Shown here: positions 20,789 through 37,294 of the stretch, piece after piece
Numbering within the stretch: the first letter of the stretch is position 1
How the letters are laid out: each line of letters starts with the position of its first letter
Assembly (NCBI GenBank): GCA_027624315.1
Contig: JAQBXX010000007.1
Span: 1 to 50,199 of the forward strand
Length of the DNA: 50,199 nt
Reading direction: 5' to 3'
From: Pseudomonadota bacterium
Lineage (GTDB): Bacteria > Pseudomonadota > Gammaproteobacteria > SURF-13
Notes under the pieces: generated by a model
Seen by the model: only the letters and a program-made list of their open reading frames with translations
Told to the model about the DNA's origin: nothing
The model's database searches: none
Made by a program: the position numbers and the translations under genes

Positions 20789-21298
20789 ATGCCCACTCCA
20801 CGCCACCCACTCATCAAGTTCGTCATGATGTCGACCACGTTTTTCTTCGTGGGCACGGTGCATGGCGTATTGCAGGTCACGCATCCGATCCGCGCCTGGC
20901 TCGACTCCATCGGCAGCCCTTATGGCGGCCCGGGACGCATGATCGACCCGCTCGCGCATGCGCATATCAACATGGTCGGCGGCGTGGTGCTGCTCGTCAT
21001 GGCCGTGAGCTATTACCTGTTGCCGATCCTCACCCAGCGCCCGCTGTATTCGCAGCGCCTGGTGGGGCACACCTTCTGGTGGATCACGCTCGGCGTGACC
21101 GGCTTTTACTCCACCCTGCTCACATTCGGCATCTGGGAAGGCCACCTGTTGCTCACCCATCCCGCCGCCATAGCGGATGTACACCGCTACTACTCCCCGA
21201 TCATCGCAACGGTTTCCACCGCGATGGGTATCGGCTTCTGGTGTTACTTCGCCAACATCTTCCTCACCCTGAGAAACTTTTACAAAACACGCGGATGA
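20789..21298 (+). CDS. Mini haem-copper oxidase subunit-I-like protein (half-length)
   Basis: 169 aa with four hydrophobic helices. AHAHINMVGGVVLLVMAVSYYLLP (H57, H59) matches the helix that carries the two haem ligands of cbb3 subunit I (HxH), followed by PLYSQRLVGHTFWW like the LYSLKLxNxHFW segment after it. H25 in FVGTVHGVLQ could be a further axial ligand. CuB histidines and the active-site tyrosine are absent, so it cannot be an oxidase alone. A similar protein is at 34965-35501. It overlaps the next gene by ATGA. I infer a b-haem membrane protein, possibly for electron transfer or oxidase assembly. Confidence 0.75.
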   Translation: MPTPRHPLIKFVMMSTTFFFVGTVHGVLQVTHPIRAWLDSIGSPYGGPGRMIDPLAHAHINMVGGVVLLVMAVSYYLLPILTQRPLYSQRLVGHTFWWITLGVTGFYSTLLTFGIWEGHLLLTHPAAIADVHRYYSPIIATVSTAMGIGFWCYFANIFLTLRNFYKTRG

Positions 21299-21813
21299 GA
21301 CTGGAGTGCGGCTGCCCCGCCAGCTTTCCCGGCTGGCATCAGCAGGACATCGGCCTCGGCGGTGAACTGGTGCATGAGGTGCCGGCGCCGATGTTTCTGC
21401 ACATGCCCATCGGCTACGAACTGCGCGCGGAACGCCAGCGCCAGACGCTGGAGCGGCTCCACCTCCAGGAACGCTGGCCGGGACTGGTGCTGATTCGCAC
21501 AGGACTGCTGCGGGGAAAACTTCTGCGCCTGCTGGAACCGGCTATCTCGCCTGCGCATGGACTCACGTATCTTCCCGCACCGTTGCAGGTGCGCGGTTTT
21601 CTGCATCACGGCAGCATCGCGGACATTTCACGCAGCGTAAAACAGATGCAGAGCGAGCTCGTAAATCTGGGCCGCAGGCCGCTGGAATTGTACCTCAGCC
21701 ACCTCACCTGCCCGCACTGCGCATCCGAGCGCGGCGGCGATAAAATCCTGTTGCTGCGTCACTGGGTGGAGAGCCCGGCGCTACAGAAACGTATCGCGGC
21801 GCGACCCATTTGA
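21295..21813 (+). CDS. Hypothetical cytosolic protein with Cys pair, coupled to mini subunit-I gene
   Basis: 172 aa from ATG 21295, which overlaps the preceding stop (ATGA), so it is translationally coupled. There is no membrane segment. Cysteines are CGCP at residues 5-8 and CPHC near 142 followed by ASERGGDKILLLRHW, a possible metal or redox site. The rest is Leu/Arg-rich (RLLEPAISPAHGLTYLPAPL). I do not recognise the family. Its coupling to a haem-type membrane protein makes an accessory or assembly role plausible. Confidence 0.65.
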   Translation: MRLECGCPASFPGWHQQDIGLGGELVHEVPAPMFLHMPIGYELRAERQRQTLERLHLQERWPGLVLIRTGLLRGKLLRLLEPAISPAHGLTYLPAPLQVRGFLHHGSIADISRSVKQMQSELVNLGRRPLELYLSHLTCPHCASERGGDKILLLRHWVESPALQKRIAARPI

Positions 21814-21817
21814 TTTC

Positions 21818-21945
21818 GCACCGCGCGATATAAAACCGCGCGGGCGACCAAAGGGGGAGAGCGTAGCGAGGGGGCCCTGCACTTCTCCCTTTTGGAAACC
21901 CCAAGGCTTTGAGCCCGCAGCAAACTGCGGGGTATGAATTATAAA
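21818..21945 (+). repeat. Dispersed intergenic repeat, copy 1 (CTTTGGAAACCCCAAGGCTTTGA type)
   Basis: It shares with 28991-29195 the left block CCGCGCGGGCGACCAAAGGGG and the right block CTGCACTTCTCCC-TTTGGAAACC-CCAAGGCTTTGA, then CCGCAGC-A-CTGCGGG and an AT-rich end. The middle is shorter here by about 80 bases. It sits exactly in the convergent gap between the 172-aa protein and the FixH-like lipoprotein. Its reverse strand gives a spurious reading frame with KALGFPKGRSA, which is not a gene. Confidence 0.8.
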
Positions 21946-21954
21946 ACCTCTCTG

Positions 21955-22326
21955 CTAATGCAACGGAAACATCAGTACCGTTTCCTCCCCGGCACGCTTT
22001 ACCCGCACCTGCAATGTTTGCGGCACAGCACCCACTGCAATGGCGCGGCGATATATGCCGGTGCGGCCGTCCTGAATCGATTGCGTCCACGGCTCGCTCT
22101 CGTGCATGCGGATGAACACCAGCAGATCATGCCCCGCCCCGCCTGTCGTGCGCGTCGCCGAGACGAGAAACTCGTTCATGCCGACGACCACTGGCGCGGG
22201 ACGTGTTTCTACCCCGACGACGACATCTTGCCACTCCTGCGTTGGCAGCCGCGACCGCTCCGCGCCGCAGGCGAACAGCAGCACGCACAACACGGCGGCG
22301 ATGCCATAGCGAGAGGTATCAGTCAT
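21955..22326 (-). CDS. FixH/YtkA-like lipoprotein of the oxidase cluster
   Basis: 123 aa from ATG 22326. The signal ends in a lipobox (VLLFAC, C20-21 region), so it is lipid-anchored in the periplasm. The mature part PAPVVVGMNEFLVSATRTTG, with GIYRRAIAVG and LQVRVKRAGEE, has the beta-sandwich layout of FixH/CcoH or YtkA domains, which assist copper or cbb3 oxidase assembly. The likeness is modest. It overlaps the upstream 141-aa gene by 8 bases, at the end of the minus-strand series that includes ccoG. Confidence 0.65.
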   Translation of the reverse strand: MTDTSRYGIAAVLCVLLFACGAERSRLPTQEWQDVVVGVETRPAPVVVGMNEFLVSATRTTGGAGHDLLVFIRMHESEPWTQSIQDGRTGIYRRAIAVGAVPQTLQVRVKRAGEETVLMFPLH

Positions 22327-22744
22327 CGCGCTGGCTCTTGTCAGTATGCTCGTTTTTATTTTTTTCCTTATCGCTGTCCAGCCGGCCGCCGCGCTCCGTG
22401 CCATACAGATTGACCATGTAGTAGACAAACGTAAACCCCAGCACAATCCACACCAATGCCGCCGCAAAGCCCCAATCAAACCACGCGCGCTCATACCCGG
22501 GGCGGTCACCCCAGAACGGAAAGCTCAGACCCACAGCGATCAGCGTCACCACCACCACCACGGCGATAAACCAGTACGGTACCTTGCGCTGTGACTCCGG
22601 AATTTTTTCCACCAGCTCCCAGTCTTCCAGGCCGCGCCTGGTGCGCCGCTCCTCGTCGCTCGCATAGCCGAAGTGGTCGGGCGACTCCTCGCCCCAGGGC
22701 GGGGGTTTGTCGCCTGCGGCAGGTGTCTTGTTCGTGTCGCTCAT
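22319..22744 (-). CDS. Two-helix membrane protein with FPxWGxRP motif
   Basis: 141 aa from ATG 22744. It has a charged N-terminus (~45 residues), helix one (PYWFIAVVVVVTLIAVGL), then FPFWGDRPGYERAWFDWGF, helix two (ALVWIVLGFTFVYYMVNLYG) and a Lys/Asp-rich tail. The pattern helix-FP(F/L)WG(D/Q)RP-...-WxDxG-helix is shared with the 229-aa protein at 30014-30703 in the CcoP position. The two are probably paralogues. No haem or metal motif is seen. It overlaps ccoG by 4 bases. Confidence 0.72.
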   Translation of the reverse strand: MSDTNKTPAAGDKPPPWGEESPDHFGYASDEERRTRRGLEDWELVEKIPESQRKVPYWFIAVVVVVTLIAVGLSFPFWGDRPGYERAWFDWGFAAALVWIVLGFTFVYYMVNLYGTERGGRLDSDKEKNKNEHTDKSQRDD

Positions 22745-24087
22745 GGAGTACCTCCTGCATAATGCTGCACGCGATAACGTGTGTGCCAACCGTTGCTCGA
22801 CTCCGCCTGCACCATCAGGGTGTAGAGTCCCCGCGGCAGATCATTGATGTGCAGCATCAGGCTCTGACGCCCGGCAGTGCTGAACACGGCCTCGCGCGCG
22901 GAAAGCCGGTAGCGATCCGCGGCCAAACCGCTTACGCTCACCTTGAGCAGGTCGGGACGATACAACTTGTTGGACAGCTCGATGCGGTAATCGTGTATCG
23001 CCGCCCCATGGGCGATGTCGGCACGGTACACTGAAAGGTGATGGGGCTGATAGTGTACGATGCCCCAGCCGAACATCACGAGGCCGATCACAGTCACCGG
23101 CGCCACCCAGACGATGCGGCCCCTCAGTGTGCCCAGATTATTTTTCAGCCGTGCACCCGCGCCCAGCATACGGCCCACGGACAGCGGCAACTTGCGTTCG
23201 CCGAGTTCAAAAAACAGCAGGCCGGACTCATTCTTGGGAAATTGCAGCGAGTCGCACGCGCTGACGCACAAGCCGCAATTGATGCAACTGTCGAAGGTGG
23301 TGGTGTTGCGCGGGTCGATGTCCACCGGACACACCGTGACGCAGTAATTGCACGCGGCGCATTGTTCGCCGCGTGTGGCGTCATAGGCGATATGCAGCGT
23401 GTGGCGCGTCTTGAACGAATGCTGCCACACGCGGTAGATGCACATGAAGCGGCAGAAGAAATGACGCACCACCGCGACATCGACGAATACGATGAGCACG
23501 AATATGGTGTAAATCCAGTACAGCGATGGTGCAAGACGCATGTCATGCCGAAACGTAATGAACGACCACACCACCTCCGGCGGATAAAAATAAAACAGCG
23601 GGATGAGCGCAAGCCCCATGGATGCCGCGAGAAACAAACCGCCGAGCAGCGCCCAGCTCATCCATTTTTGCTTGCCTGCCGAGACACGTAACGCTACGCC
23701 CTCAAGACTCACCTCGGCACGCCGGCCGAGAAATTTCTTCGTCATGCGGTCAGCCCACTCGGACAATGTATTCTGCGGGCACGACCAGCCGCAAAAGGCG
23801 GTGCCGAGCGTGGAGTAGGTGATGATCAGCGCGCTCGCCAGCGCCAGCCAGAAGCCCGCCATCAGCGCAAAGTCGGAAAACCAGATTTGACGCCCGAGCA
23901 CCACGAAGGTCGCCGCTGCCGGGTCGATGCGCAACAGCCCGCTCACCGGAATCAGCACGGCGAGCACCAGCGTGCCGAGCTGCACCGCACGCCGCCGGCG
24001 CTGTAGCACCGCACCGCTCGATACTGCGTGGCCGGTCTCCACCGTCACCTTGATACGGCTTAGGGCCTCTTTAGCACCTGTACTCAT
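22741..24087 (-). CDS. ccoG: cbb3 oxidase accessory protein CcoG (FixG/RdxA-type ferredoxin)
   Basis: 448 aa from ATG 24087. Membrane segments flank AFCGWSCPQNT near 98. Two [4Fe-4S] motifs follow: CAACNYCVTVCPVDID near 250 and CINCGLCVSACDSLQFP near 273. A last TM helix near 330 precedes the FixG C-terminal Ig-like domain (ELSNKLYRPDLLKVSVSGL). CcoG reduces Cu2+ for copper delivery during cbb3 oxidase maturation at the inner membrane. In usual loci it lies in ccoGHIS; here a P-type ATPase CcoI is not visible. Its neighbours downstream overlap by 4 bases. Confidence 0.93.
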   Translation of the reverse strand: MSTGAKEALSRIKVTVETGHAVSSGAVLQRRRRAVQLGTLVLAVLIPVSGLLRIDPAAATFVVLGRQIWFSDFALMAGFWLALASALIITYSTLGTAFCGWSCPQNTLSEWADRMTKKFLGRRAEVSLEGVALRVSAGKQKWMSWALLGGLFLAASMGLALIPLFYFYPPEVVWSFITFRHDMRLAPSLYWIYTIFVLIVFVDVAVVRHFFCRFMCIYRVWQHSFKTRHTLHIAYDATRGEQCAACNYCVTVCPVDIDPRNTTTFDSCINCGLCVSACDSLQFPKNESGLLFFELGERKLPLSVGRMLGAGARLKNNLGTLRGRIVWVAPVTVIGLVMFGWGIVHYQPHHLSVYRADIAHGAAIHDYRIELSNKLYRPDLLKVSVSGLAADRYRLSAREAVFSTAGRQSLMLHINDLPRGLYTLMVQAESSNGWHTRYRVQHYAGGTP

Positions 24088-24169
24088 GGCATCAATTTTA
24101 ACATAGGAGTGTGGTTGCGACGGGCGCAGGCCTGCCCACCCGGTTCGACAAGATTGTGTGCGTGAAGTG

Positions 24170-26806
24170 CTATTTCCCGGCGCGCAGCTCACGGTCAAGC
24201 GGGGCAGCGGCGGCAAAGCGCGCGCGCAGGCGTTTGGCCTCGTCGGCATCGCCCGCCGCCTGCTCCAGATGCCACAGAGCGCGTAGCGCCTCGGCGTGAT
24301 CGGGCCGCACCGCGAGCACCCTCTGCAACGCCATGCGTTTATCCATACCTTGTTTCAACGCTTGCGGCAGAGTGGCGAACATGGCGTCCGCCAGCGCAAA
24401 ACCGATCCAGCGGTCGCGCGGATTCGCCTCATGGGCCAGGCGCAACAGCCGCGCGTCTTCGCCCTCGCCCTGTAAACTCATGCGCCAGCCGCGCAGCGCA
24501 AGTTCGGTGGCGACGTAGGCACGCTCGAAAGCCGCGCGGTCTGCCTCCGCCACCTGTAATTCCCGCGCCGCCTGCTCCAGGCCTGGCCGCGCCGCCAACA
24601 TCCGGTCGAGCAGCGTGACCAGATGCGCGCCGCCGCCGTAGCGCGCGCGCGGCAGGCGGAACTCAATGCGCGGCGCCCACTCTTCCTGCAGCGGCACCGC
24701 ACGCGGCGCGATGGCACCCCAGTAACGTCCGAGCCAAGTCCACGGCCCTTCACCCCCGGTGGCCAGCTCCTGCACGCCTGCGGCCAGCCGGTTTAGATTC
24801 GCCAGCACAGCGGGCGCACCGGAGACATGGTTCTGCGGGCCCACCAGCGCAAGATGCAGCCCGTCGACAAACAGCACCGCGCCCGGGAACACATGACGAA
24901 AACTCTCCAGTACGGTGTCCAGCGCATCCGGATCGAACTGGTTGAGCGCAATCCATTGCACGAACAGGCCGCCGGGTGCGAGACGCGCACGCGCACGCTC
25001 AAACTGTTGCACCGACAGCAGCGCGCTGTGGCCGGCGAGGTCGGGGTGGAACAGGTCGCCGATGATGACATCATAGTGCGCGGGGTTTGCGCGCAGAAAG
25101 CGCCGCGCATCGTCGCGCGTTACGCGCATGGTGGCGAGCACGCCGCCGTTCACCGGCGCAAACCAGTCGCGCGCAGCAATGATGGCGCCTTGCGACAATT
25201 CCACGGCCGTGCGATCAAGATCAGGATACGGCAGCGAACCGGCGGCGGAGATGCCGGTGCCCAACCCCAGAAACAACACCGAATGCGGCGCTGGGTGCAA
25301 CAGCAGCGGCAGGCGCGCCTGATTTTCCTGCACCGCGACGGCGGCCTGGTCGCTGGCGGCCTCCATGCGCTGCAGGTCGGTAAGCAGCACGCGCTGTCCA
25401 TCGGCGCGCTCAATCACGTGCGTGATGGCGATGGCATCTTCGTGCCGGGAAAGATCGCGTGTATCGGCCTGCGCCATCGGCAACAGGCGTGCCACCGGCG
25501 GCAACTCGCGCACCGGAAACATCAGCACCCCCAGACCCAGCACGCTCGCGGCCACCACGGCGTAACGCGCACGCGGCGCATCGGCCCAGACCCAGCCGCA
25601 GACGAGCAACAACAGTGCCGCAACGCATACCGTGCCCGGTGCGCCGAGCTGTGGCAGCAGTATCACACCGGCCATGATCGCACCGAGCATCGCACCGAGC
25701 GAGTTCACTCCGTAGAGCCAGAGGCCGCTGTGCGTGCCCTGCGCGTAGCGCTGGCTGAGCAGCGGCAGCCAGGCGCCGAGCGCGAGCGTCACCGGTAACG
25801 TGATGAGCATCAGCACCAGCGACTGCGCAATGATCGCGCCCGCCAGACTGTCGAACTGCGCCTGCTCCGCCCAGGCCGACAGCCACGGCAACCACCACAG
25901 ACTGAGCACGGCAAACACGCTCGCACACAGCGGCAGCACACTGAACCAGACCGCGCCCTTCATGCGTCGCGCCAGCAGACTGCCCGCGCCGATGCCGAAC
26001 AGAAACACCGCGAGCAGCACGGCGAGCACATATTCGGTGCGCAGCAACACCATGCCGTATAAACGCGTCCAGCCAATCTCCAGCATCAGCGCGCCCGCGC
26101 CAATACCGGCGTAGGCCCAGAGCGAGAGCGCCGGGGGGCGGTGCACGGAGACTTCTGCGGCCTCATCTGATGTACGCGGTACGATACTGGCGAGCAACAG
26201 CGCCGCAATCCCCACGGCGAGGCCCGCGCCTGCCATCCAGTACAACGCCGCCGTCCAGCCCAGCAGCGGCAACAGCCACAGCGGCAGCAGCGCGCCCAGT
26301 GCCGCGCCGCAGGTGTTCAACCCGTAGAGCACGCCCAGCGACAACTGGGCCGCGCGCGCCGCCTTGAGCGCCAGCGCAAACCCCACGCCCATCACAATCG
26401 CAGGCAGCATCAGCAACAGCAGCGCCGCCACACCTTGCAGCGCGTACCAAGCCGTCAGGCCGGTATGCGGCGCAAGTGCATTCAGCATGGTCTCCTGCGC
26501 CCGCAGCAAGGAAGGTGATGCGAAGGCATAGGCCGCCAGGCCGAGCTCCAGCAGGGCGAACACCGCCAGCGGAGCGCGCGTATGCCGGCTCACGCGCATG
26601 CCCCACAGGCTGCCCACACCCAGCCCGCCCATGAAGGCGGCCGTCACCGCCACCACGCCGAAGATGCTCACACCGAACTGCAGCGCGAGCACGCGCGCCC
26701 ACAGTACTTCGTAGGCCAGGCTGGTGAGTCCCGAGAGTGCGTAAATCAGGGCCAATAACAGCGCCGGCATCTGCGCCGACGCACGGGCCGGTATCATCAG
26801 ACGCAT
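24170..26806 (-). CDS. Fused MFS-like membrane domain and spermidine-synthase-like domain
   Basis: 878 aa from ATG 26806; other in-frame ATGs at 26797 and 26770 are possible. Residues ~10-440 are hydrophobic, about 12 or more helices, opening ALIYALSGLTSLAYEVLWARVL as in this fusion family. At ~515-690 is a Rossmann domain (LFLGLGTGISAAGSLPYPDLDRTAVELS, VIIGDLFHPDLAG, LAPGGLFVQW) like spermidine synthase. The C-terminus (~770-870) is helical and TPR-like. The real substrate of such fusions is unknown, and polyamine synthesis should not be assumed. It lies inside the minus-strand oxidase series, 82 bases upstream of ccoG. Confidence 0.85.
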   Translation of the reverse strand: MRLMIPARASAQMPALLLALIYALSGLTSLAYEVLWARVLALQFGVSIFGVVAVTAAFMGGLGVGSLWGMRVSRHTRAPLAVFALLELGLAAYAFASPSLLRAQETMLNALAPHTGLTAWYALQGVAALLLLMLPAIVMGVGFALALKAARAAQLSLGVLYGLNTCGAALGALLPLWLLPLLGWTAALYWMAGAGLAVGIAALLLASIVPRTSDEAAEVSVHRPPALSLWAYAGIGAGALMLEIGWTRLYGMVLLRTEYVLAVLLAVFLFGIGAGSLLARRMKGAVWFSVLPLCASVFAVLSLWWLPWLSAWAEQAQFDSLAGAIIAQSLVLMLITLPVTLALGAWLPLLSQRYAQGTHSGLWLYGVNSLGAMLGAIMAGVILLPQLGAPGTVCVAALLLLVCGWVWADAPRARYAVVAASVLGLGVLMFPVRELPPVARLLPMAQADTRDLSRHEDAIAITHVIERADGQRVLLTDLQRMEAASDQAAVAVQENQARLPLLLHPAPHSVLFLGLGTGISAAGSLPYPDLDRTAVELSQGAIIAARDWFAPVNGGVLATMRVTRDDARRFLRANPAHYDVIIGDLFHPDLAGHSALLSVQQFERARARLAPGGLFVQWIALNQFDPDALDTVLESFRHVFPGAVLFVDGLHLALVGPQNHVSGAPAVLANLNRLAAGVQELATGGEGPWTWLGRYWGAIAPRAVPLQEEWAPRIEFRLPRARYGGGAHLVTLLDRMLAARPGLEQAARELQVAEADRAAFERAYVATELALRGWRMSLQGEGEDARLLRLAHEANPRDRWIGFALADAMFATLPQALKQGMDKRMALQRVLAVRPDHAEALRALWHLEQAAGDADEAKRLRARFAAAAPLDRELRAGK

Positions 26807-26819
26807 GAGGAACAAAATG

Positions 26820-27191
26820 TCAGAATGGATAGAACCAGACGATGGCCACGATCGCATGAATGATCGCGAGCGTGAAACTGAATCCTGCAGAGATCATGTG
26901 CGCCACAAATACCGGCTTGCCGTACACCGCCATCGCGATACCGAGACCCACAGTGGTGGCAATGCCGATCAACAGCGCAACGCCCATGATGAACAGGACT
27001 TGGTGCCTTTCCTTCTGCACGATGGCCTCAGGGACGCGACTTTTTTCCGCCTCTGCGCTGATAAATCCTTGCATCACCTGCTCGCCGCTGCTGGGGGCGA
27101 TGGCGCTCACGCTTGGCCCCGCGAACAGACACAGCGCGAGACCTACACAACGCGCAACATCAGCGCGGCTCATCATCCCGCCCTGGCTCAT
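26820..27191 (-). CDS. Small membrane protein with signal peptide and intramembrane histidines
   Basis: 123 aa. An N-terminal signal-like helix ends near PSVSA. A periplasmic stretch (VMQGFISAEAEKSRVPEAIVQKERHQ) is followed by three hydrophobic segments including VFVAHMISAG and FTLAIIHAIVAIVWFYPF. The histidines within membrane helices could bind haem, but this is speculation. Starts at 27176 or 27173 are also possible. It overlaps the preceding 79-aa gene by 32 bases. Confidence 0.65.
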   Translation of the reverse strand: MSQGGMMSRADVARCVGLALCLFAGPSVSAIAPSSGEQVMQGFISAEAEKSRVPEAIVQKERHQVLFIMGVALLIGIATTVGLGIAMAVYGKPVFVAHMISAGFSFTLAIIHAIVAIVWFYPF

Positions 27192-27399
27192 CCTTTTGCC
27201 GTGCGGCGCGGCGCCAATATATCCACATCAGCACGGCAAACGGCGCCAACACCAGCGGCGCCAGCACCAGAAAAATGTACCATATCGTGTCGATGGTGAC
27301 GTGCAGATAGCGATAGCTGTCCACCGCGTGGGCCTGTAGCGGCAACATGCACACCGCCAGCGCAAGGGCCAAGATCAAGGCTTTAATATGTTTACTCAT
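27160..27399 (-). CDS. 79-residue membrane protein with cleavable signal
   Basis: Signal peptide MSKHIKALILALALAVCMLP then QAHAVDSYRYLHVTIDT, one TM helix (YIFLVLAPLVLAPFAVLMWIYW) and a charged tail RRAARQKDEPGRDDEPR. Its ATG overlaps the SUMF1-type gene by 4 bases, so it is coupled. The layout of a short exported segment plus a helix suggests a small structural or assembly subunit. No family is recognised. Confidence 0.7.
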   Translation of the reverse strand: MSKHIKALILALALAVCMLPLQAHAVDSYRYLHVTIDTIWYIFLVLAPLVLAPFAVLMWIYWRRAARQKDEPGRDDEPR

Positions 27400-28469
27400 G
27401 GTGTGGTGCCTGTGGTTTCTTCCACATCCTGCGCGCAGCGGAAGCCGAAGAAATCCGAGGCATAATAAGGCAGCGAATAATTGCGGTGGTAGGTGGCGGT
27501 GGAAAAAGGATCACTCTTCCATGAACCACCGCGCATGGCCTTATAGGTCTTGTCGTTGGTGACCAAATCCACCACCTTCAGGCTGCGATTTTCCGCAGAA
27601 GAAACCACGCCGCCTTTCCCTTTGAATAAATCCGCCGGGGCATCGCTGCCCGGATACGGCTGCAAATCACTCGCCGTCCACTCGCTTACATTGCCTGCCA
27701 TGTCCATCACGCCATACGGGCTGGCACCTTGCGGATATTGCGTCACCGGCGTGGTGTTACCCACATTGTAATAGGTATTGAGCCGGCTCACGTCCATCAC
27801 TTCGCCCCATGGCCAGCGCCTGCCGTCGGTGCCGCGTGCGGCCTTCTCCCACTCCGCTTCGGTGGGCAAACGCTTGCTCGCCCACTTGGCATATCTTGCG
27901 GCGTCATGCCACGAGACCAGCGTCACCGGGTGCAGCTCCTGGCCATTGGGAATCTTGCCGCCGCCCCAGCTCGGCGGCGGATGATGTCCTGAGGCCACCA
28001 CGAAGCGGGCGTATTGGGCGTTGGTCACGGGGTATTTGTCAATGCGGTAGGCCGGCAGCGTCACCTTGTGCCGGGGGTGATTCTGCACGTCGGCGCGCGC
28101 GCTGTCGGTACCCATGATGAAATCACCCGCCGGAATCAGGATTACGGTACTCAACTCGCGCCACTGTTGCGGCGTAAGCAGCTCTTCCACTTCCAGCGGT
28201 TTGTAGAGATTGGTCACCCTTTCGACCTCCCCCGCAATACGCACCGCCTCTTCGCCTGCTGCGCGGATGCGTGATTTTTCATTGCCGAGATCGTAGGTGG
28301 CCTTGCTGCGCATTTCCTCCATACGGTTCGCGCCGAGCTGGATCACGTGCACGCTGCCGCCAATCATCGCCAGCGCGACGCACATCACGATGGTAGCGAC
28401 CAGATAGCGTTTGCGTTTGGCGCGCTCTGCACTGTTCAGCGCGTGGTGGCGTTGCGGTTCGACCTTCAT
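27396..28469 (-). CDS. Membrane-anchored SUMF1/FGE-fold protein lacking catalytic cysteines
   Basis: 357 aa. An N-terminal TM anchor (~22-44) is followed by a helical linker and then a SUMF1 (formylglycine-generating-enzyme) domain at ~107-347. That domain shows ILIPAGDFIMGTDSARAD, YRIDKYPVTNAQYARFV, VSWHDAARYAKWASKRLPTEAEWEKAARG, GVMDMAGNVSEWTAS and MRGGSWKSDP...GFRCA. True FGEs use a Cys pair four residues apart after GGSW; here the segment has none, so formylglycine formation is unlikely. SUMF1-fold proteins also occur beside nitrite reductase (NirV) and in ergothioneine synthesis. Its setting between cytochrome and membrane genes points to oxidase assembly (inference). Confidence 0.88.
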   Translation of the reverse strand: MKVEPQRHHALNSAERAKRKRYLVATIVMCVALAMIGGSVHVIQLGANRMEEMRSKATYDLGNEKSRIRAAGEEAVRIAGEVERVTNLYKPLEVEELLTPQQWRELSTVILIPAGDFIMGTDSARADVQNHPRHKVTLPAYRIDKYPVTNAQYARFVVASGHHPPPSWGGGKIPNGQELHPVTLVSWHDAARYAKWASKRLPTEAEWEKAARGTDGRRWPWGEVMDVSRLNTYYNVGNTTPVTQYPQGASPYGVMDMAGNVSEWTASDLQPYPGSDAPADLFKGKGGVVSSAENRSLKVVDLVTNDKTYKAMRGGSWKSDPFSTATYHRNYSLPYYASDFFGFRCAQDVEETTGTTP

Positions 28470-28478
28470 GACGACCGC

Positions 28479-28979
28479 CTAGCGGGCTGCCTGGGGCCGG
28501 TAATCCTTTCCGGTGAGTTTTTCATACTCGGCCTTGCGCGTTTCTTCCAGATACCAGTCCTGCACCTTGAGGCCCGCCATATAGGCGGCCAGCACGCGCC
28601 GCTCGTGCTCCGGCAGGTGTGCATAAGACGGCATGCGGTACTGTTGCTTCAGGCGCGAGGGCAGTATCGACTGCGGATCGGGGGCGGAGAAGTAATTGTA
28701 AAACCACGTCTCGTCGCGCAACGAGCCGATACCATCCAGCGCCGGGGCCGGTACCGACTCGAGCATGTTGCGCATGGTCCAGAGTGTGTGGCAGTTCTTG
28801 CAGTTCAGTTGGCGGTAAAGATCAGACCCCGCGCGCGTGATCTCAGGTGTTGCGGTGCTATAGAAGGGAATGCCGGGATCGGGCTCCTGCTGCGTGCCGA
28901 GTTGCCAGAGCGTCTTGCCCACGGCCCACAGGGCAATGGCCGCAATGAGGCCCCATATCCATTTTTCACCTGTACGCAC
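28479..28979 (-). CDS. Membrane-anchored monohaem cytochrome c
   Basis: 166 aa. N-terminal anchor helix WIWGLIAAIALWAVGKTLW, then a haem motif CKNCH (C60, C63, H64). LDGIGSLRDETWFYNYFSAPDP follows, and the likely axial Met is in YRMPSYAHLPEHERRVLAAY. The fold is that of small class-I cytochromes like the CcoO or CcoP haem arms. It follows the SUMF1-type gene's upstream side with a 9-base gap, so both are co-transcribed. It could supply electrons that the haem-less CcoP-position protein cannot. Confidence 0.88.
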   Translation of the reverse strand: MRTGEKWIWGLIAAIALWAVGKTLWQLGTQQEPDPGIPFYSTATPEITRAGSDLYRQLNCKNCHTLWTMRNMLESVPAPALDGIGSLRDETWFYNYFSAPDPQSILPSRLKQQYRMPSYAHLPEHERRVLAAYMAGLKVQDWYLEETRKAEYEKLTGKDYRPQAAR

Positions 28980-28990
28980 GGGGCGGGCGA

Positions 28991-29195
28991 ATCAATTTGA
29001 TTTCACACTGCGCGGCATGAACCCGCGCGGGCGACCAAAGGGGGCGAGATGTGCAACATCGAGCGGGCGGACATGGATGTTCGCCCTGGACTTGTACGCG
29101 AAGCAGGATGCGCAAGCGTACAAGGCTGCACTTCTCCCCTTTGGAAACCCCAAGGCTTTGAACCCGCAGCGAGCTGCGGGATATAAATTAATCAC
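28991..29195 (+). repeat. Dispersed intergenic repeat, copy 2 (longer form)
   Basis: Same outer blocks and orientation as 21818-21945. An extra ~80 bases contain GCGGACATGGATGTTCGCC, a near-palindrome around CATGGATG, and a CTTGTACGC...GCGTACAAG inverted pair. The reverse strand makes an open frame of 67 codons with KALGFPKGRSAALYACAS and HLAPFGRPRG. Such frames recur with this repeat in many genomes and are not genes. It splits the minus-strand series between the CcoS-like and cytochrome genes. Confidence 0.82.
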
Positions 29196-29215: not shown

Positions 29216-29473
29216 TTAGCTGTGCTTGTGTTCCTTGAGCAGTTCTTCGCGGCGCTTGATCTGCCGCGCCAGCACTTCCCTGCTCTTGGCGTATTCCGCC
29301 GGATCCATGCGCTCCTCGTCACTTTCGTTGAACATCACGTACTTGATGTCTTCATCGAACTGTTCATTGCGCATCGCCCAGCGGATGCCGAACGCCACCG
29401 CCACCAGAATCAGCGCGCCCACCACCAGCCAGAGATAGATCGTCCAGCCGTCAACCAACATATCTGCATTCAT
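29216..29473 (-). CDS. CcoS-like small membrane protein
   Basis: 85 aa. One TM helix (YLWLVVGALILVAVAFGI) is followed by RWAMRNEQFDEDIKYVMFNE, matching the CcoS pattern helix-W-x(2-3)-(R/S)xxQFDD. CcoS is needed for cofactor insertion in cbb3 oxidase. The C-terminal charged extension (REVLARQIKRREELLKEHKHS) is longer than in usual CcoS. AGGAG precedes the ATG by 6-7 bases. Its presence in this series supports the cbb3-type assignment. Confidence 0.72.
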   Translation of the reverse strand: MNADMLVDGWTIYLWLVVGALILVAVAFGIRWAMRNEQFDEDIKYVMFNESDEERMDPAEYAKSREVLARQIKRREELLKEHKHS

Positions 29474-29482
29474 AACTCGCTC

Positions 29483-29797
29483 CTAAAGAAGGTAACCGCC
29501 CAGCAGTTGCAGCGCGCCCAGTATGACCGCCACTACGATGCCGAGAAAAATCCAGGCAAACAGCCACTTTTCACCGCGCTTCAATCCTTTGGCATGCTTG
29601 CCTGCCATAAATCCCATCACAATGCTGGCAAAGAAGATGATGGTCAGCAGCATGAAAAAGAATACGCCGATGCTGAACTGCTGGCTATAGATGCTATCCA
29701 CCCCGTGATCGTCGGCCACCGGATCCTGCACTTGCAGCGCAATATGACCGGCTGGTGCAGTGGTGTCTGTGTGCTGCATTGGGCTGAGGCTGGACAC
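29483..29797 (-). CDS. 104-residue two-helix membrane protein, possibly leaderless
   Basis: It reads from a GTG at 29797 (alternative ATG 29779). Helices are FSIGVFFFMLLTIIFFASIVMGFM and WLFAWIFLGIVVAVILGALQLL, joined by AGKHAKGLKRGEK. The N-terminus is exported and His/Asp-rich (QHTDTT, DDHGVDS). A perfect TATAAT lies 7 bases before the GTG and no ribosome-binding site is visible, so a leaderless message is possible. It is the first gene after the terminator of the CcoNO unit. Family not recognised. Confidence 0.68.
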   Translation of the reverse strand: MSSLSPMQHTDTTAPAGHIALQVQDPVADDHGVDSIYSQQFSIGVFFFMLLTIIFFASIVMGFMAGKHAKGLKRGEKWLFAWIFLGIVVAVILGALQLLGGYLL

Positions 29798-29891: not shown

Positions 29892-30017
29892 CTACTTCTT
29901 CTTTTTGTAGAGATTGGGTGCGTAGCGGTCAACGATAAAGTTGTACAGCACCGGCACCAGCAAAGCTACCAATGTTACTCCGGCCAGAACCAGCGGCGGG
30001 TTGTCGATATCTATCAT
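29892..30017 (-). CDS. CcoQ-like 41-residue membrane peptide
   Basis: MIDIDNPPLVLAGVTLVALL then VPVLYNFIVDRYAPNLYKKKK: a single helix with a basic tail. GAGGAGAG stands 4 bases before the ATG, and the start overlaps the upstream stop by ATGA, so translation is well supported. The position right after the CcoP-position gene and the size match CcoQ, a short stabilising subunit of cbb3 oxidases. Sequence likeness alone would not prove it. Confidence 0.72.
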   Translation of the reverse strand: MIDIDNPPLVLAGVTLVALLVPVLYNFIVDRYAPNLYKKKK

Positions 30018-30703
30018 GCTACTCTCCTCTTTTGGCCATGCACGCTCAGTTCGGCAATCTCGGCGTCGCTCAGCATACGCTCATTGCCGTGGCGCGGCTG
30101 TACGGTGTTGGGGGGCAGGCGCTTCACCACGATCATCACCGCGAAACAGAAATAGATCACGTAGAAGATATCGATAGTGTAGCCTATATCCCACCACGGT
30201 TGCTGCCGCACCTGGGTACCGTCAGCGCGCAGATTGCCTTCGAAATTGGCCAGCACCACCTTGTTGCCTACTACAGTGTAGTCATCCAGCACCACACCTT
30301 GCGCCTTGAGCGCCTCTATCTGGGGCCGGATGGTACGCAGATCATCCATGCTGATGGGGTGATTGATGTGTGGCGTGGCATATTTTGAGCCACTTTCACT
30401 CGCCTTCTTCACCATATAGTCCATTTGTGCAGCGTCGTTCGGCAGCGCCTGCACCTCCGGGCTGTCCATCGTTGCCACAAACTCTTCGTAGATGGCGGCG
30501 GTGGGACGCTGGCCCCATAACGGGAAGGTAATAAGATAGGCAGATATGATCGTCAGCACCAGCAAATAAACGACCGGCTGCGGCAGGCGGTTATTGTTTT
30601 CCATAATTCCGCCCATGCTCTCCGCTTCCCATACTTCCATGGCGGTCTTGTTTTGCTCATCACTGGTCAATGTACGCAGTGGATTATCAAATCTCCAAGT
30701 CAT
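30014..30703 (-). CDS. CcoP-position membrane protein without haem motifs
   Basis: 229 aa; GGAGGAG precedes the ATG. NNRLPQPVVYLLVLTIISAYL at ~37-57 resembles the NNPLPRWW-helix start of CcoP. It is followed by FPLWGQRP, a ~100-residue exported domain (MDDLRTIRPQIEALKAQGVVL, NKVVLANFEGNLRADGTQVRQQPWWDIGY), a second helix (IDIFYVIYFCFAVMIVV) and a cytoplasmic tail. There is no CXXCH at all, whereas CcoP carries two haems c. It shares the FPxWGxRP/WxDxG pattern with the 141-aa protein at 22319. I infer a structural replacement for CcoP. Confidence 0.75.
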   Translation of the reverse strand: MTWRFDNPLRTLTSDEQNKTAMEVWEAESMGGIMENNNRLPQPVVYLLVLTIISAYLITFPLWGQRPTAAIYEEFVATMDSPEVQALPNDAAQMDYMVKKASESGSKYATPHINHPISMDDLRTIRPQIEALKAQGVVLDDYTVVGNKVVLANFEGNLRADGTQVRQQPWWDIGYTIDIFYVIYFCFAVMIVVKRLPPNTVQPRHGNERMLSDAEIAELSVHGQKRRVA

Positions 30704-30716
30704 GACACTCCTCCTA

Positions 30717-31667
30717 CTACTTCAGGTTCAAGACGAAGTCTATGAGATAGCGAATCTCACTATCGCTACGGTAGTTCGGCACCTCGGGCGGCGTGACGCG
30801 CTCGCCGTTGCGGTACTCGACGAACTCCTTGCGCCAGGCGGCGTAATCGATCTGGTCGCCATTGGCGTCGGTTTTGCCCCACAGATAATCAAAGCGCGGC
30901 ATGATCGAGTGCGGCTGCACCAGGCGCGGATTGAAAAAGTGCATCATCATCCACTCTTTCGATGAGTTGCGTGAACCCACGTGCAGCAGATCGGGCGCCT
31001 TGCGATCCGAGCCGAACGTGGTCGGTGACTCGCCATTGAAGTCGCCCAGGTAGGGCGGTGCGCCGAAATACTGGAAGTCCTGCGTCTGCTCGGGCAGCAG
31101 GGTGTGGCACCACCAGCAGCCCTCACGCACGAAGATGGTCTTGCCCGCACCTGCATGGCTCGTGTTGGCATCACCAGCGACCTTCAGTACGGCATCCGGG
31201 CTCCATCCGCGTGTCGCGCTGACATTTTCGATATACGGATAGGCCTTGCCGTTGTGCTCGCCGCTGCGCACCAGGAACACCGCACCCTGCGCCTCACTGG
31301 CCTCGTTGATCTTGCCCTGCTCCACGCTCAGCACGTCAGAGCCCGCACCCAGCACCTTGGGGTGCAGAATACCGCTCGGAAAGCGCGCGTTGGCAGGGAA
31401 CACGTAGGCATGCACCGGCTCCATCACGGCGTCCGTCTGCGGATCCTGCTTTAGCAGAACCTTGAGCGGTTTGTTGGCGCCGGTCAGGAACATATCATCC
31501 GGGTTCCAGCCGCTGTTGAAGCCGTAGGTCAACTGCTTCTCCAGGGCAAGCGCCGTGGAACCGACGGAGAAGATGTTAAAGCTCGGCACCACCAGCGTGA
31601 TGAACATGGACAAGCTGAGTGCTGCGCCGAACATCACGGCGCCGATTCGATATTCTCTAAAAGCCAC
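30717..31667 (-). CDS. ccoO: cbb3-type oxidase monohaem subunit CcoO with large insert
   Basis: 316 aa from GTG 31667 with AGGGAG upstream. The N-terminal anchor is VMFGAALSLSMFITLVVPSF. The haem motif is CWWCH (C184, C187, H188) in FVREGCWWCHTLLPEQ, followed by family marks APPYLGDFNGE, FGSDRKAPDLLHVGSR, FNPRLVQPHSIMPRFDYL (axial Met) and YLIDFVLNLK. In ordinary CcoO (~200 aa) the haem site comes soon after the anchor. Here ~120 extra residues (about 45-170), including HAYVFPANARFPSGILHPKV and a Trp/Asp-rich part, lie between. The inserted domain is unrecognised. It is 12 bases from the next gene and 27 from ccoN. Confidence 0.88.
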   Translation of the reverse strand: MAFREYRIGAVMFGAALSLSMFITLVVPSFNIFSVGSTALALEKQLTYGFNSGWNPDDMFLTGANKPLKVLLKQDPQTDAVMEPVHAYVFPANARFPSGILHPKVLGAGSDVLSVEQGKINEASEAQGAVFLVRSGEHNGKAYPYIENVSATRGWSPDAVLKVAGDANTSHAGAGKTIFVREGCWWCHTLLPEQTQDFQYFGAPPYLGDFNGESPTTFGSDRKAPDLLHVGSRNSSKEWMMMHFFNPRLVQPHSIMPRFDYLWGKTDANGDQIDYAAWRKEFVEYRNGERVTPPEVPNYRSDSEIRYLIDFVLNLK

Positions 31668-31694: not shown

Positions 31695-33104
31695 TTAACG
31701 CTCGTAGGCCAGTTCATGCACCATGCGGCCCGCAGGTACCGGGGTACCTTCACGCGCAGTCATGTACATGTTGTACAGCCACACGCAGTTGCCGAGGAAC
31801 ACCAGTGTGCCACCGAACCAGCGCGCGATCATGTACGGATGCTCCGCCACCACGATGTCGATGTACGGCACTTCGTAAATCTTGCCCGCGCCCTGAATCA
31901 GGCCGGCGATGGTCATGGCGATCCAGTAGATCGAGAAACCGATGAGCAGCATCCAGAAGTGGAAGTTGGCAAGCGCCAGGGAGTAGAGCTTGCGCTTCAT
32001 GAGCACTTGCAGGCCGTAGTACACGGCGGCGACCTCAATGAAGGTAGAGAAGCCGAGCAGCGCGAGATGTGCATGCGCCACGATCCAGCCGGTGCCGTGA
32101 ATGTACCAGTTGATGGAACGGGTCTGCTGGAAGCCGCCCTGCATGTTGAGCGGGATGGCGAGCAGCACGCCGGTCACGGTGAAGCGTATCTCGATGTTCT
32201 CCACGAACATGTTCCACTTGCCCTGCAAGGTGAGCAGGATGTTGGACACGAAGGCAATCGCAGGCACCAGAATCAGCACACCTTCCACCGAGGCGAAGGA
32301 CTTCAGCCACTCCGGCAGCGGCGCGGACATCAGGTGATGCGCGGCGGGCGTGGAGTAGAAGATCACGATGGACCAGAAGTGCAGGTGACCGATGCGGTGC
32401 GAATACAGCGGGTTGCCGGTGATCTTGGGGATGGTGTAGTAGGCAATGGCCGCGGCCACCGGGGTAATCCACAGGCCCAGGATGTTGTGCGCATTCCACC
32501 AGGTGAGATAGGCCTCGGTCAGGCCGGTGAGATGGAAGTACTCCGGCAGGTTGCCCACCAGCAGCACGATCAAAAGCATGAAGATCGAGGCAGCGAAGAA
32601 CCAGTTGGTAGTGTAGATGCCCTGGGTGCGGCGCTTGGCAATGGTCATCCATACATTGAGCGCCACCGGGATCAGCACACCGAACAGAAGGATCAGGTCG
32701 ATGGGGTAGATGAAGTCGGAATATTCACGCCCGGAGGTCATCCCCATCCACAGCGTGAACAGGCCGACCGCGAGGCCGATATTCCAGTTCATGCAGCTCC
32801 ACACGCCGAGCTTCTCCGACCACAGCTTGGTGTTGCCGAGCGCGGGGGTGATGTACATCATGGCTGCGGCGAAGGCCATGGAAATCCAGCCGAAGATCAC
32901 CGCCATCACGTGCACCTGGCGCATCTTGCCGAAGGCGAAGAACTCAAAGCCGGTGACCCAATCAGGAAACGCGAGTTTGGCGGCATTAAACGAACCGAGA
33001 CCGGTACCGATAATGAACCAGACAATGGCCGAGAAGGAGAAAAAGATCGAGGCGGTTCCTGGCGGGATGTCCTCGTTCTTGCCCATCAAATATTTCATCA
33101 ACAT
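31695..33104 (-). CDS. ccoN: cbb3-type (C-family) haem-copper oxidase subunit I CcoN, divergent
   Basis: 469 aa, twelve helices. Ligands sit at canonical spacing: low-spin haem H65 (RQVHVMAVIFGW), CuB H206 (TWWNAHN), helix-VII Tyr Y250, CuB H256-H257 (AAHHL), and haem ligands H344/H346 (IVAHAHLALLGF). H206-Y250-H256 equals the P. stutzeri 207-251-257 spacing, which supports an O2 reductase, not a NO reductase. The conserved helix-IX Glu (P. stutzeri E323, 22 residues before the first haem His) is Gln (Q322) here. GREYSD replaces the usual GREYAE. It works with CcoO at the inner membrane to reduce O2 with cytochrome c electrons. Confidence 0.93.
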   Translation of the reverse strand: MLMKYLMGKNEDIPPGTASIFFSFSAIVWFIIGTGLGSFNAAKLAFPDWVTGFEFFAFGKMRQVHVMAVIFGWISMAFAAAMMYITPALGNTKLWSEKLGVWSCMNWNIGLAVGLFTLWMGMTSGREYSDFIYPIDLILLFGVLIPVALNVWMTIAKRRTQGIYTTNWFFAASIFMLLIVLLVGNLPEYFHLTGLTEAYLTWWNAHNILGLWITPVAAAIAYYTIPKITGNPLYSHRIGHLHFWSIVIFYSTPAAHHLMSAPLPEWLKSFASVEGVLILVPAIAFVSNILLTLQGKWNMFVENIEIRFTVTGVLLAIPLNMQGGFQQTRSINWYIHGTGWIVAHAHLALLGFSTFIEVAAVYYGLQVLMKRKLYSLALANFHFWMLLIGFSIYWIAMTIAGLIQGAGKIYEVPYIDIVVAEHPYMIARWFGGTLVFLGNCVWLYNMYMTAREGTPVPAGRMVHELAYER

Positions 33105-34964: not shown

Positions 34965-35501
34965 TTATTTATCGAAACGCCAACTGGTGCGGAACAGGTT
35001 GTAGGCCCAAATGATGTTGGACAGCAACACCAGACTGCCAAACAGGCCCACGCTGATCATGAACGGGCGCACGATTTTATTCACCTCGTCGATGTCCATG
35101 GTTTCGCTGGCCAGCCCGCCCAGGCTGCCCGCCAGCACAAACGACGCCACCATGCCGAGCAGACCGAAGTTGTGTATCCAGAAATGGACATTGACCAGGC
35201 GCAGGCTGTAGATATTGCGCCGCACCACACGCGGGACGATATAATACGCCGCCGCGAAGATCGCCATCTCCACCCAACCCAGCAGATTGATGTGACCGTG
35301 CCCGAGCATGATGAGGTGCGCGTGCGGCCGCTGGTTGATGAAGGCGCGCAGGTCGGGCAGCATGCCGACGATCACGCCCCATGAAAATCCGATGATGCTG
35401 TAAATCACACAGGCCGTCACAAACCACAAGATGTAACGCCGGTATTGAATATCCTGTCCGAACTCCTCACTCACGCTGCGCTCCTTGCTGTATTGCTGCA
35501 T
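34965..35501 (-). CDS. Mini haem-copper oxidase subunit-I-like protein, second copy
   Basis: 178 aa from ATG 35501 (a GTG at 35537 is also in frame). There are four helices. GHGHINLLGWVEMAIFAAAYY (H68, H70) aligns with the haem-ligand helix of cbb3 subunit I. RNIYSLRLVNVHFWIHNFGLLG then follows exactly as LYSLKLVNWHFW does there, and the end IIWAYNLFRTSW resembles the CcoN C-terminus. CuB ligands and the catalytic Tyr are absent. It overlaps the upstream cytochrome gene by 35 bases. It is related in layout to the protein at 20789. I infer a b-haem-binding partner of the oxidase. Confidence 0.8.
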   Translation of the reverse strand: MQQYSKERSVSEEFGQDIQYRRYILWFVTACVIYSIIGFSWGVIVGMLPDLRAFINQRPHAHLIMLGHGHINLLGWVEMAIFAAAYYIVPRVVRRNIYSLRLVNVHFWIHNFGLLGMVASFVLAGSLGGLASETMDIDEVNKIVRPFMISVGLFGSLVLLSNIIWAYNLFRTSWRFDK

Positions 35502-36075
35502 CTGCGTGTGCCGATTTTTGGCGCCTCTCTGCGGCACCGGCCTTCCACGGCTCAGGTGCCCAGAAATTTGCCATGCCCTGCACGAAACCAGAATTGGCGG
35601 CCTCTTTGGGCGGCACGCGCGACATGGCGGAGCCTTGTTCGGCCTTGAGTTCGGACAGGAACACGGCGATGTCGTGCAGGGTGGCCGGGGGCAGTGCGCT
35701 TATCCGGGCCGCCTCCTTGGGCGCAGCGCCATGATCTACCGTGGCCGTCTCGTACACCGCTTCCGGATTTTTCAGAAAGTCCTCCAGCCATTCACGGCTG
35801 CGGCGCGAGCCGATGCCATCGAGCGAGATGCCGTGATTGGTGCCGTTACGCATGGCGCGGTGGCAGGCGGTGCAGCCGGCCTCACGAAACAATTTAGAGC
35901 CGCGCTGGCCTGCGACACCAAGATCGAATGACGAGCGCGCTGCGAACATCGGCTCCGACATATGGGCACGCACCACCTCCATGACCACCAGGCCGACGAG
36001 TGCGAGCACCAGGAATGCGCCAAACACGGCAAACAGCACCTTTTCGCCGGGCTTGAGTGATTGCTTGCGTTGCAT
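35467..36075 (-). CDS. Membrane-anchored monohaem cytochrome c
   Basis: 202 aa. The N-terminal anchor is VLFAVFGAFLVLALVGLVVMEVV and the haem motif is CTACH (C68, C71, H72). FLKNPEAVYETA and LPPATLHDIAVFLSEL follow, a class-I cytochrome c layout in which the axial Met is not obvious. The C-terminal ~50 residues (MANFWAPEPWKAGAAERRQK) are an unusual extension. It is translated upstream of the mini subunit-I gene with a 35-base overlap, suggesting a b/c haem pair acting together. Confidence 0.85.
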   Translation of the reverse strand: MQRKQSLKPGEKVLFAVFGAFLVLALVGLVVMEVVRAHMSEPMFAARSSFDLGVAGQRGSKLFREAGCTACHRAMRNGTNHGISLDGIGSRRSREWLEDFLKNPEAVYETATVDHGAAPKEAARISALPPATLHDIAVFLSELKAEQGSAMSRVPPKEAANSGFVQGMANFWAPEPWKAGAAERRQKSAHADAAIQQGAQRE

Positions 36076-36324: not shown

Positions 36325-37128
36325 TCAGTGTGCCGACGCCCCTGCTGCCGCAGGCTGCAACTGGTGCGGCTCGCGTGAGTTGCCGCCGGAAACAGCCGGC
36401 GCGCTGGTGAGGTAGGCGGCGACATTGTAGATGTCCTCATCCTTCATCTTGCCCGCCACGGCGCGCATCGCGCCTAGCGGATCGTTGGCGCGGCTGCCAT
36501 CCTTCCATTTCCTCAGCTGATTCACCAGATAGACGTAACGCTGTCCGCCGATGGTAGGGAAAACCGGCAGGGCACCACGGCCATTGTACTGATGGCAACT
36601 ACTGCATGCGGGCACGCCCTGCTCCGGAATGCCATAGAGTACGATGCCCTTGCCGAGGTGACGCTCGCCCACCGGTACGGTACCCGCAGCCTTGACCTCT
36701 TCCAGGTTAGAGGCGGCAGCGAGGGCGCCCTGATGCTGGCTGGACTCGTAGGCGGAGATGTCCGCCTTGTCCTGATCGGAGAGGGCCTTGGCGACGCCAT
36801 TCATCACACCCATGGTGGTGTCAGTGCGGTGGTCGGTAGCAAATTCGTACAACTGCTTTCTGAGATAGACAAAGCCTTGCCCGGCCAGGCGCGGGGTGCC
36901 CATGTTGTCATCACCCAAACCTGTCTCGCCGTGGCAGGACATGCAAGGCGGGGCCTCGCCCTTGCCTTCGTTGAAAATCTTCTTGCCAGCCTCTATGTTG
37001 CCTACCAGCTTGAGCACACCGGTGGGCATCGGCTGAGGCGTAGGTGCTGCGGCTTGATCTTCCGCCAATACAGGTGTTACCCCACACAGCGACAGCGCCA
37101 CAAATAATGCTGCAAGAAACCGACGCAT
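36325..37128 (-). CDS. Periplasmic dihaem cytochrome c4
   Basis: 267 aa from ATG 37128 with GGGAGGA upstream. The signal peptide MRRFLAALFVALSLCGVTPVL ends in AEDQ. Two haem sites are CMSCH (C62, C65, H66) and CSSCH (C175, C178, H179), each followed by the c4 pattern (GTPRLAGQGFVYLRKQLYEF and FPTIGGQRYVYLVNQLRKWKDGSR). Cytochrome c4 is the common electron donor of cbb3 oxidases. It begins the cytochrome part of the locus and ends in its own terminator, so it is probably transcribed alone at high level. Confidence 0.93.
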   Translation of the reverse strand: MRRFLAALFVALSLCGVTPVLAEDQAAAPTPQPMPTGVLKLVGNIEAGKKIFNEGKGEAPPCMSCHGETGLGDDNMGTPRLAGQGFVYLRKQLYEFATDHRTDTTMGVMNGVAKALSDQDKADISAYESSQHQGALAAASNLEEVKAAGTVPVGERHLGKGIVLYGIPEQGVPACSSCHQYNGRGALPVFPTIGGQRYVYLVNQLRKWKDGSRANDPLGAMRAVAGKMKDEDIYNVAAYLTSAPAVSGGNSREPHQLQPAAAGASAH

Positions 37129-37294
37129 ATAAACTATCCTCCCAATTTTTAAGACAAGATTATTATTTGGACACTCGCGCCCCACACCACCGCACCTTCG
37201 CACCTTCGCACCACCTGCACGCGCCGCCAGTTATGGGGCACCCGATCCGTGGTGTGCGAGGCTACCCGGCGTGCCGGCGCAAGCGCCTGGCAAT

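Follow-up and report, generated by a model that had tools for sequence, protein, structure and literature searches.

What occupies the place of CcoP in a cbb3-like oxidase when the gene that follows ccoO encodes a protein with no haem motif, and by which route could electrons then reach the enzyme? In canonical cbb3 oxidases, electrons pass from CcoP to CcoO and from there to haem b. The second question extends to electrons from Fe(II) or nitrite in Gallionellaceae, Nitrotoga, Ferrovum and Zetaproteobacteria, whose oxidase the accessible text of the papers concerned annotates simply as cbb3. The window, that is, the whole stretch of 50,199 nucleotides of DNA analysed here, carries an oxidase island that bears on both questions. 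The reading favoured here, which is judged probable with some reserve, is that the protein encoded after ccoO (P1) is related to the CcoP anchor, lacks haem and fills the place of CcoP in a divergent cbb3-like (C-family) oxidase composed of CcoN, CcoO and P1, that electrons would enter CcoO from membrane-anchored monohaem cytochromes, and that a paralogue of P1, referred to as P2, would help in assembly or copper loading. The genes of the island are the following:

20789..21298, plus strand: half-size COX1-family protein A (COX1 match)
21955..22326, minus strand: lipoprotein-like protein of 123 aa, after P2; conserved with the ccoG-P2 block
22319..22744, minus strand: P2, 141 aa, two-helix paralogue without the inserted domain of P1; shares 4 bases at its start with the stop of ccoG
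22741..24249, minus strand: polyferredoxin ORF resembling ccoG, probably starting at about 24087; also adjoins P2 in other genomes
24170..26857, minus strand: long protein with a spermine-synthase domain (domain match)
27396..28469, minus strand: FGE-sulfatase-domain protein (domain match)
28479..28979, minus strand: monohaem cytochrome c with a membrane anchor; may donate electrons to CcoO
29216..29473, minus strand: CcoS/FixS-like maturation protein (FixS 21.1 bits, below the 23.1 cut-off)
29483..29797, minus strand: small membrane protein, conserved in the island
29892..30017, minus strand: single-helix protein of 41 aa; its start overlaps the P1 stop
30014..30703, minus strand: P1, 229 aa, open ORF directly 3' of ccoO; haem-free protein in the CcoP position
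30717..31667, minus strand: monohaem subunit resembling CcoO, with some 140 residues more than in genome G040
31695..33104, minus strand: ccoN-like catalytic subunit of a divergent lineage; retains all six His and the Tyr of TM VII, with Q for P. stutzeri E323
34965..35537, minus strand: half-size COX1-family protein B (COX1 match)
35467..36075, minus strand: membrane-anchored monohaem cytochrome c, paralogue of 28479-28979 (E 2e-35)
36325..37203, minus strand: dihaem cytochrome c (two CXXCH)

P1 and its paralogue beside ccoG

An earlier note on this DNA had claimed that the protein encoded after ccoO starts like CcoP yet lacks CXXCH, and both points are borne out: P1 contains the CcoP-like stretch ENNNRLPQPVVYLL and no CXXCH, and neither CXXCH nor the looser C-x2-4-CH is present in any of 87 homologues (87 and, below, 85 are counts of P1 loci and not of independent genomes, some genomes being represented twice). 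In an AlphaFold model (pLDDT 75), P1 consists of an amphipathic helix (residues 15-27), a first, FixP_N-like transmembrane helix (TM1, 42-62), an alpha/beta domain (about 69-151) that is predicted to be periplasmic, and a second transmembrane helix (TM2, 173-193). Foldseek returned no match to this fold at E<=0.001, the best Z in a VIA comparison was 4.2, among unrelated proteins, and no PDB chain related to P1 by sequence was found.

P2 also lacks CXXCH, and its AlphaFold model, which is poor (pLDDT 65), places helices at residues 57-77 and 91-115. The proposal that the two proteins share a succession of helix, FP(F/L)WG(D/Q)RP, WxDxG and helix stands: pairwise BLASTP aligns them at E 6e-6, and profile-profile comparison at E 9e-7 over the first helix, a match that is by itself not overwhelming, given that, in the same type of comparison, P2 set against its reversed profile reached 2.6e-6 and a control pair of other island proteins 4.6e-6. 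Removal of the insert from P1 brings the profile-profile value to 3.3e-10 over 72 columns (usable rows: 80 of 84 for P1 and 41 of 41 for P2, the P2 alignment being built without L027 and L060, which lie on the same contigs as L019 and L021), while the C-terminal halves alone match at 1.2e-4, with reversed and unrelated controls at 0.01 or worse. The C-terminal and insert-free matches therefore indicate that P1 has the architecture of P2 plus a periplasmic insert of roughly 90-100 residues. In the window's genome, P1 and P2 are each other's best secondary match (E 0.002 and 3e-4). The two copies had been placed at the two ends of the island, which holds for P2, near one end of a syntenic block that runs from about 20.8 to 37.2 kb, and not for P1, which lies in its interior. 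A second, shorter P2 paralogue of 116 aa is encoded elsewhere (L238:6523-6873, G057:C10), away from any recognised island gene.

The genomic setting of P2 suggests what it may do. Among the matches listed, ccoG is present in 53 of the 80 loci of named genomes chosen by CcoN, and P2 follows ccoG within 400 bases in all 39 listed loci that are testable, namely those with at least 330 bases beyond ccoG. G173 and G280, which belong to one family, have ccoG, P2, the lipoprotein and half-size HCO A together in a block separate from ccoNO-P1. This attachment to ccoG rather than to the oxidase genes makes an assembly partner or accessory beside CcoG the more likely role for P2, ahead of that of a second structural subunit. 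The contrary possibility, that P1 and P2 are both structural in the mature oxidase, which would then hold a duplicated two-helix subunit instead of CcoP, is unlikely; it draws on the paralogy of the two proteins, on their co-occurrence in 33 of the 33 genomes with P1 among 369 of the class, and on the presence of P2 on the same island in most loci, but has to contend with the constancy of the ccoG-P2 pair, which leaves ccoNO together, and with the weak direct similarity of P2 to CcoP (hhalign E 0.0048, probability 7%). Against FixP_N, 2 of 40 P2 members give a match (best E 0.04), and the link runs only via P1 and a protein of G040 described below. Since most of the loci observed combine the ccoG-P2 block with the oxidase genes, the linkage to ccoG is compatible with a structural P2 as well. 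The earlier idea of a duplicated structural subunit that replaces CcoP survives in part: the paralogy holds, and P1 lies at the CcoP site as the sole FixP_N protein; a structural role for both is not supported, P2 being tied to ccoG and barely CcoP-like.

According to the favoured reading, with P2 as an assembly factor, P2 would have kept the short two-helix form and aid assembly or copper loading. Searches of the six genomes from the window's family, and of G026 and G027, found no FixH, and P2 could hold CcoG near CcoN/CcoO in replacement of this missing FixH/CcoH. Two candidates for FixH itself were rejected, P2 on its profile score (hhalign E 0.012, probability 3.5%, with a FixH alignment that leaves out L248), and the lipoprotein encoded after P2 for want of profile support.

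Probable kinship of P1 with the CcoP anchor

In hhalign comparisons with 22 CcoP proteins (the alignment leaves out L121, which has an internal stop), the P1 family matches CcoP N-termini at E 8e-8 (probability 94.5, 77 columns), and the motif upstream of the helix is in register between the two profiles. The suggested kinship of P1 with the N-terminus of CcoP is upheld by this value, which takes its place beside those for P1 with P2 and, far weaker, P2 with CcoP. Among Pfam families, FixP_N ranks first for P1, with matches at E<=0.1 in 45 of 85 proteins and a best E of 2.4e-5. For the P1 of the window, the score is 23.5 bits in a protein scan (cut-off 24.9) and 27.2 bits in a genome scan, and no other FixP_N protein occurs in that genome; a six-frame scan of the six genomes from the window's family places P1 above the cut-off and gives no other FixP_N hit. 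P1 of G014, G026, G027 and G041 gives no FixP_N match at 1e-3, and against TIGR00782, the curated full-length CcoP model, P1 reaches 13.4 bits, below the cut-off of 179.95. The link between P1 and CcoP covers some 35 to 77 columns, most of them in a single transmembrane helix, and its margin is about 30-fold and not astronomic, because the two control pairs described above came as close as they did.

These features bear on a further alternative, in which P1 has no kinship with CcoP and is a two-helix subunit or an assembly factor, the likeness of its first helix to FixP_N (NNxLPxP plus a hydrophobic helix) having arisen by convergence. Such an origin, which we regard as rather improbable, would sit well with the shortness of the match, with per-sequence Pfam scores near or below the cut-off and with control profiles that reach 2.6e-6, but less well with a profile match of 8e-8 whose motif is in register upstream of the helix, with the lack of any other FixP_N protein in the genome, and with a protein of G040 that passes the FixP_N cut-off at the CcoP position.

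The cluster of G040 is a reduced one, with a CcoN that is 61% identical and a CcoO of 173 aa without the added sequence, and its CcoP position is occupied by one two-helix protein of 114 aa (FixP_N 26.2 bits against a cut-off of 24.9), which matches P1 (8.9e-9) and, over both helices, P2 (3e-10). G040, in which no P2 was found, encodes two canonical CcoP as well. Its reduced-cluster CcoO lacks about 140 columns, and the inserts of CcoO and P1 appear together, a correlation that amounts to one evolutionary contrast (G040 against the rest). The simplest history would be one in which a short haem-free CcoP-anchor protein was duplicated, one copy gaining a periplasmic domain to become P1 and the other moving beside ccoG to become P2; change in the reverse direction is possible.

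The oxidase core and its distribution

A scan of named genomes by CcoN alone gave 176 matches, of which the 80 loci listed include Gallionella, Sideroxydans, Ca. Nitrotoga, Ferrovum/Ferrovaceae, one Mariprofundaceae MAG and many gammaproteobacterial MAGs. Among the matches listed, P1 is present in 79 of these 80 loci, the exception being a locus that breaks off inside ccoO, some 0.8 kb past ccoN. Of 369 class genomes, 30 have both a CcoN of this type and P1, 2 have the CcoN without P1 (one with the G040 form, the other divided at a short contig), 3 have P1 without the CcoN, and 334 have neither; another class of the phylum also carries most of the island. The observation of a haem-free protein in the CcoP position is sound, and it is broader than one sequence could show.

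The catalytic subunit with which P1 travels is itself divergent. CcoN reaches 234 bits against TIGR00780, the canonical ccoN model, whose cut-off is 583, and in a tree calculated without can_L166 and can_L169 and without an NOR outgroup, the island CcoN forms its own branch (support 100/98), adjoining G040 and apart from the canonical and CcoS-fused forms. When 24 island sequences are aligned with 20 canonical ones, 24/24 island rows have the six His ligands of haem and CuB and the Tyr of TM VII, while the position of P. stutzeri E323 (residue 322 here) holds Q in 24/24 island and E in 20/20 canonical proteins. CcoN is 72-97% identical across families, and CcoO has one CXXCH in 88 of 89 cases. 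In the window's genome, the island CcoN is the only ccoN, and together with half-size proteins A and B, whose alignments fall in the final third of the COX1 model (roughly positions 300-428), it makes up the whole COX1 family; no hit to cytochrome bd was obtained. The island oxidase is therefore the sole recognised O2 reductase of this genome, if the assembly, given as 100% complete, is indeed so. A NO reductase, considered in view of the divergence of CcoN, was rejected on account of the TM VII Tyr and the full set of ligands. That the locus is more generally a degraded or specialised non-oxidase, such as a NO reductase or a sensor, with P1 a leftover, is hardly credible, since the low TIGR00780 score and the Q in place of a conserved E are outweighed by invariant residues typical of O2 reductases, by conservation of CcoN across families and by a genome with no other COX1-family oxidase or cytochrome bd hit.

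The FGE-sulfatase-domain and spermine-synthase-domain proteins are conserved members of the oxidase island. An intergenic repeat is present in two copies within it, at 21808-21941 and 28995-29190, with blocks of 65 and 54 nt that are 91% and 87% identical.

Electron entry and comparison with known systems

If P1 is a haem-free anchor relative, as favoured here, it would pack against CcoN as the helix of CcoP does, and its periplasmic domain might cover CcoO and provide a docking face. Electrons could pass from a soluble dihaem cytochrome to one or both of the membrane monohaem cytochromes (28479-28979 and 35467-36075), and from these directly to the haem of CcoO; given such direct entry, the two haems of CcoP would be dispensable. 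One of the two monohaem cytochromes has a single CXXCH in 85 of 85 cases. The first of them matches domain 2 of CcoP at 1e-8 and domain 1 of Cyc1 at 2.6e-8; these cytochromes had been considered as split-off haem domains of CcoP and, Cyc1 being resembled nearly as well, are not clearly CcoP pieces. The dihaem cytochrome of the island is possibly the Cyc1 of the iron-oxidiser papers, to judge by its two CXXCH and its position. A more far-reaching proposal, to be taken as speculative, is that of a separate class of C-family oxidases in which the function of CcoP is split between a haem-free anchor, P1, whose new periplasmic domain is matched to an enlarged CcoO, and two paralogous membrane cytochromes that act as interchangeable inputs, with the two half-size COX1 proteins as extra haem-b subunits, the whole forming a large complex for high-potential donors such as Fe(II) or nitrite.

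Another divergent form of cbb3 is found in G030 and G031 (loci L196 and L197), with a CcoN that bears an N-terminal extension (of CcoS-like appearance in L196), CcoO and a monohaem CcoP-like protein, which in G030 scores at the FixP_N cut-off. It resembles the island oxidase in its divergent CcoN and in the Q at the E323 site (2/2), and differs in that the third subunit keeps a CXXCH. The division of cbb3 into proximal and distal forms reportedly derives from the tree of Ducluzeau 2008. In the accessible text on Sideroxydans and Zetaproteobacteria, both forms are described (PMC8788666, PMC7029218), with different subunit compositions and a homologue of Cyc1 linked to a cbb3 cluster (PMC8788666), while that on Nitrotoga gives the oxidase simply as cbb3 (PMC6050957). 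In Ca. Tenderia electrophaga, the cyc1 region is reported as syntenic with Mariprofundus, a polyferredoxin and three hypothetical genes lie in syntenic regions, and complex IV-2 is highly expressed (PMC5371394); this oxidase-like region is likely the same island, with hypothetical proteins that carry no subunit assignment in the text accessible to us.

A close precedent is Ferrovum JA12, where only subunits I and II of cbb3 were found and the co-localised cytochromes FERRO_02610 or FERRO_02510 were proposed to substitute for subunit III (PMC4725956). As in the island, subunit III is missing and c-type cytochromes lie nearby, and Ferrovum and Ferrovaceae loci carry P1; the spacing of FERRO_02570, 02560 and 02510 fits the island, from which we infer that P1 is 02550. 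The accessible parts of that paper, unlike the present analysis, make no mention of a haem-free CcoP-anchor relative or of a paralogue on the side of ccoG, and no description of either protein was found in the literature searched, a search that most subscription papers and all supplements fell outside. The absence of subunit III and its substitution by nearby cytochromes are thus already in print, and it is the haem-free protein and its paralogue that appear to be undescribed.

With CcoP/FixP, subunit III of cbb3, P1 shares the first helix with its N-N-x-L-P-x-P entry and the place after ccoO, whereas it differs in the lack of a haem motif, in its second transmembrane helix and in a haem-free periplasmic domain. 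Judged on sequence, P1 is outside the definition of CcoP, which requires haem, but would be a relative of its anchor in CcoP's place. If CcoP is replaced by a haem-free protein in this manner, the route of electron entry differs from that of canonical cbb3, the missing subunit III gains an identity, and P1 becomes a sharp marker of this class of oxidases.
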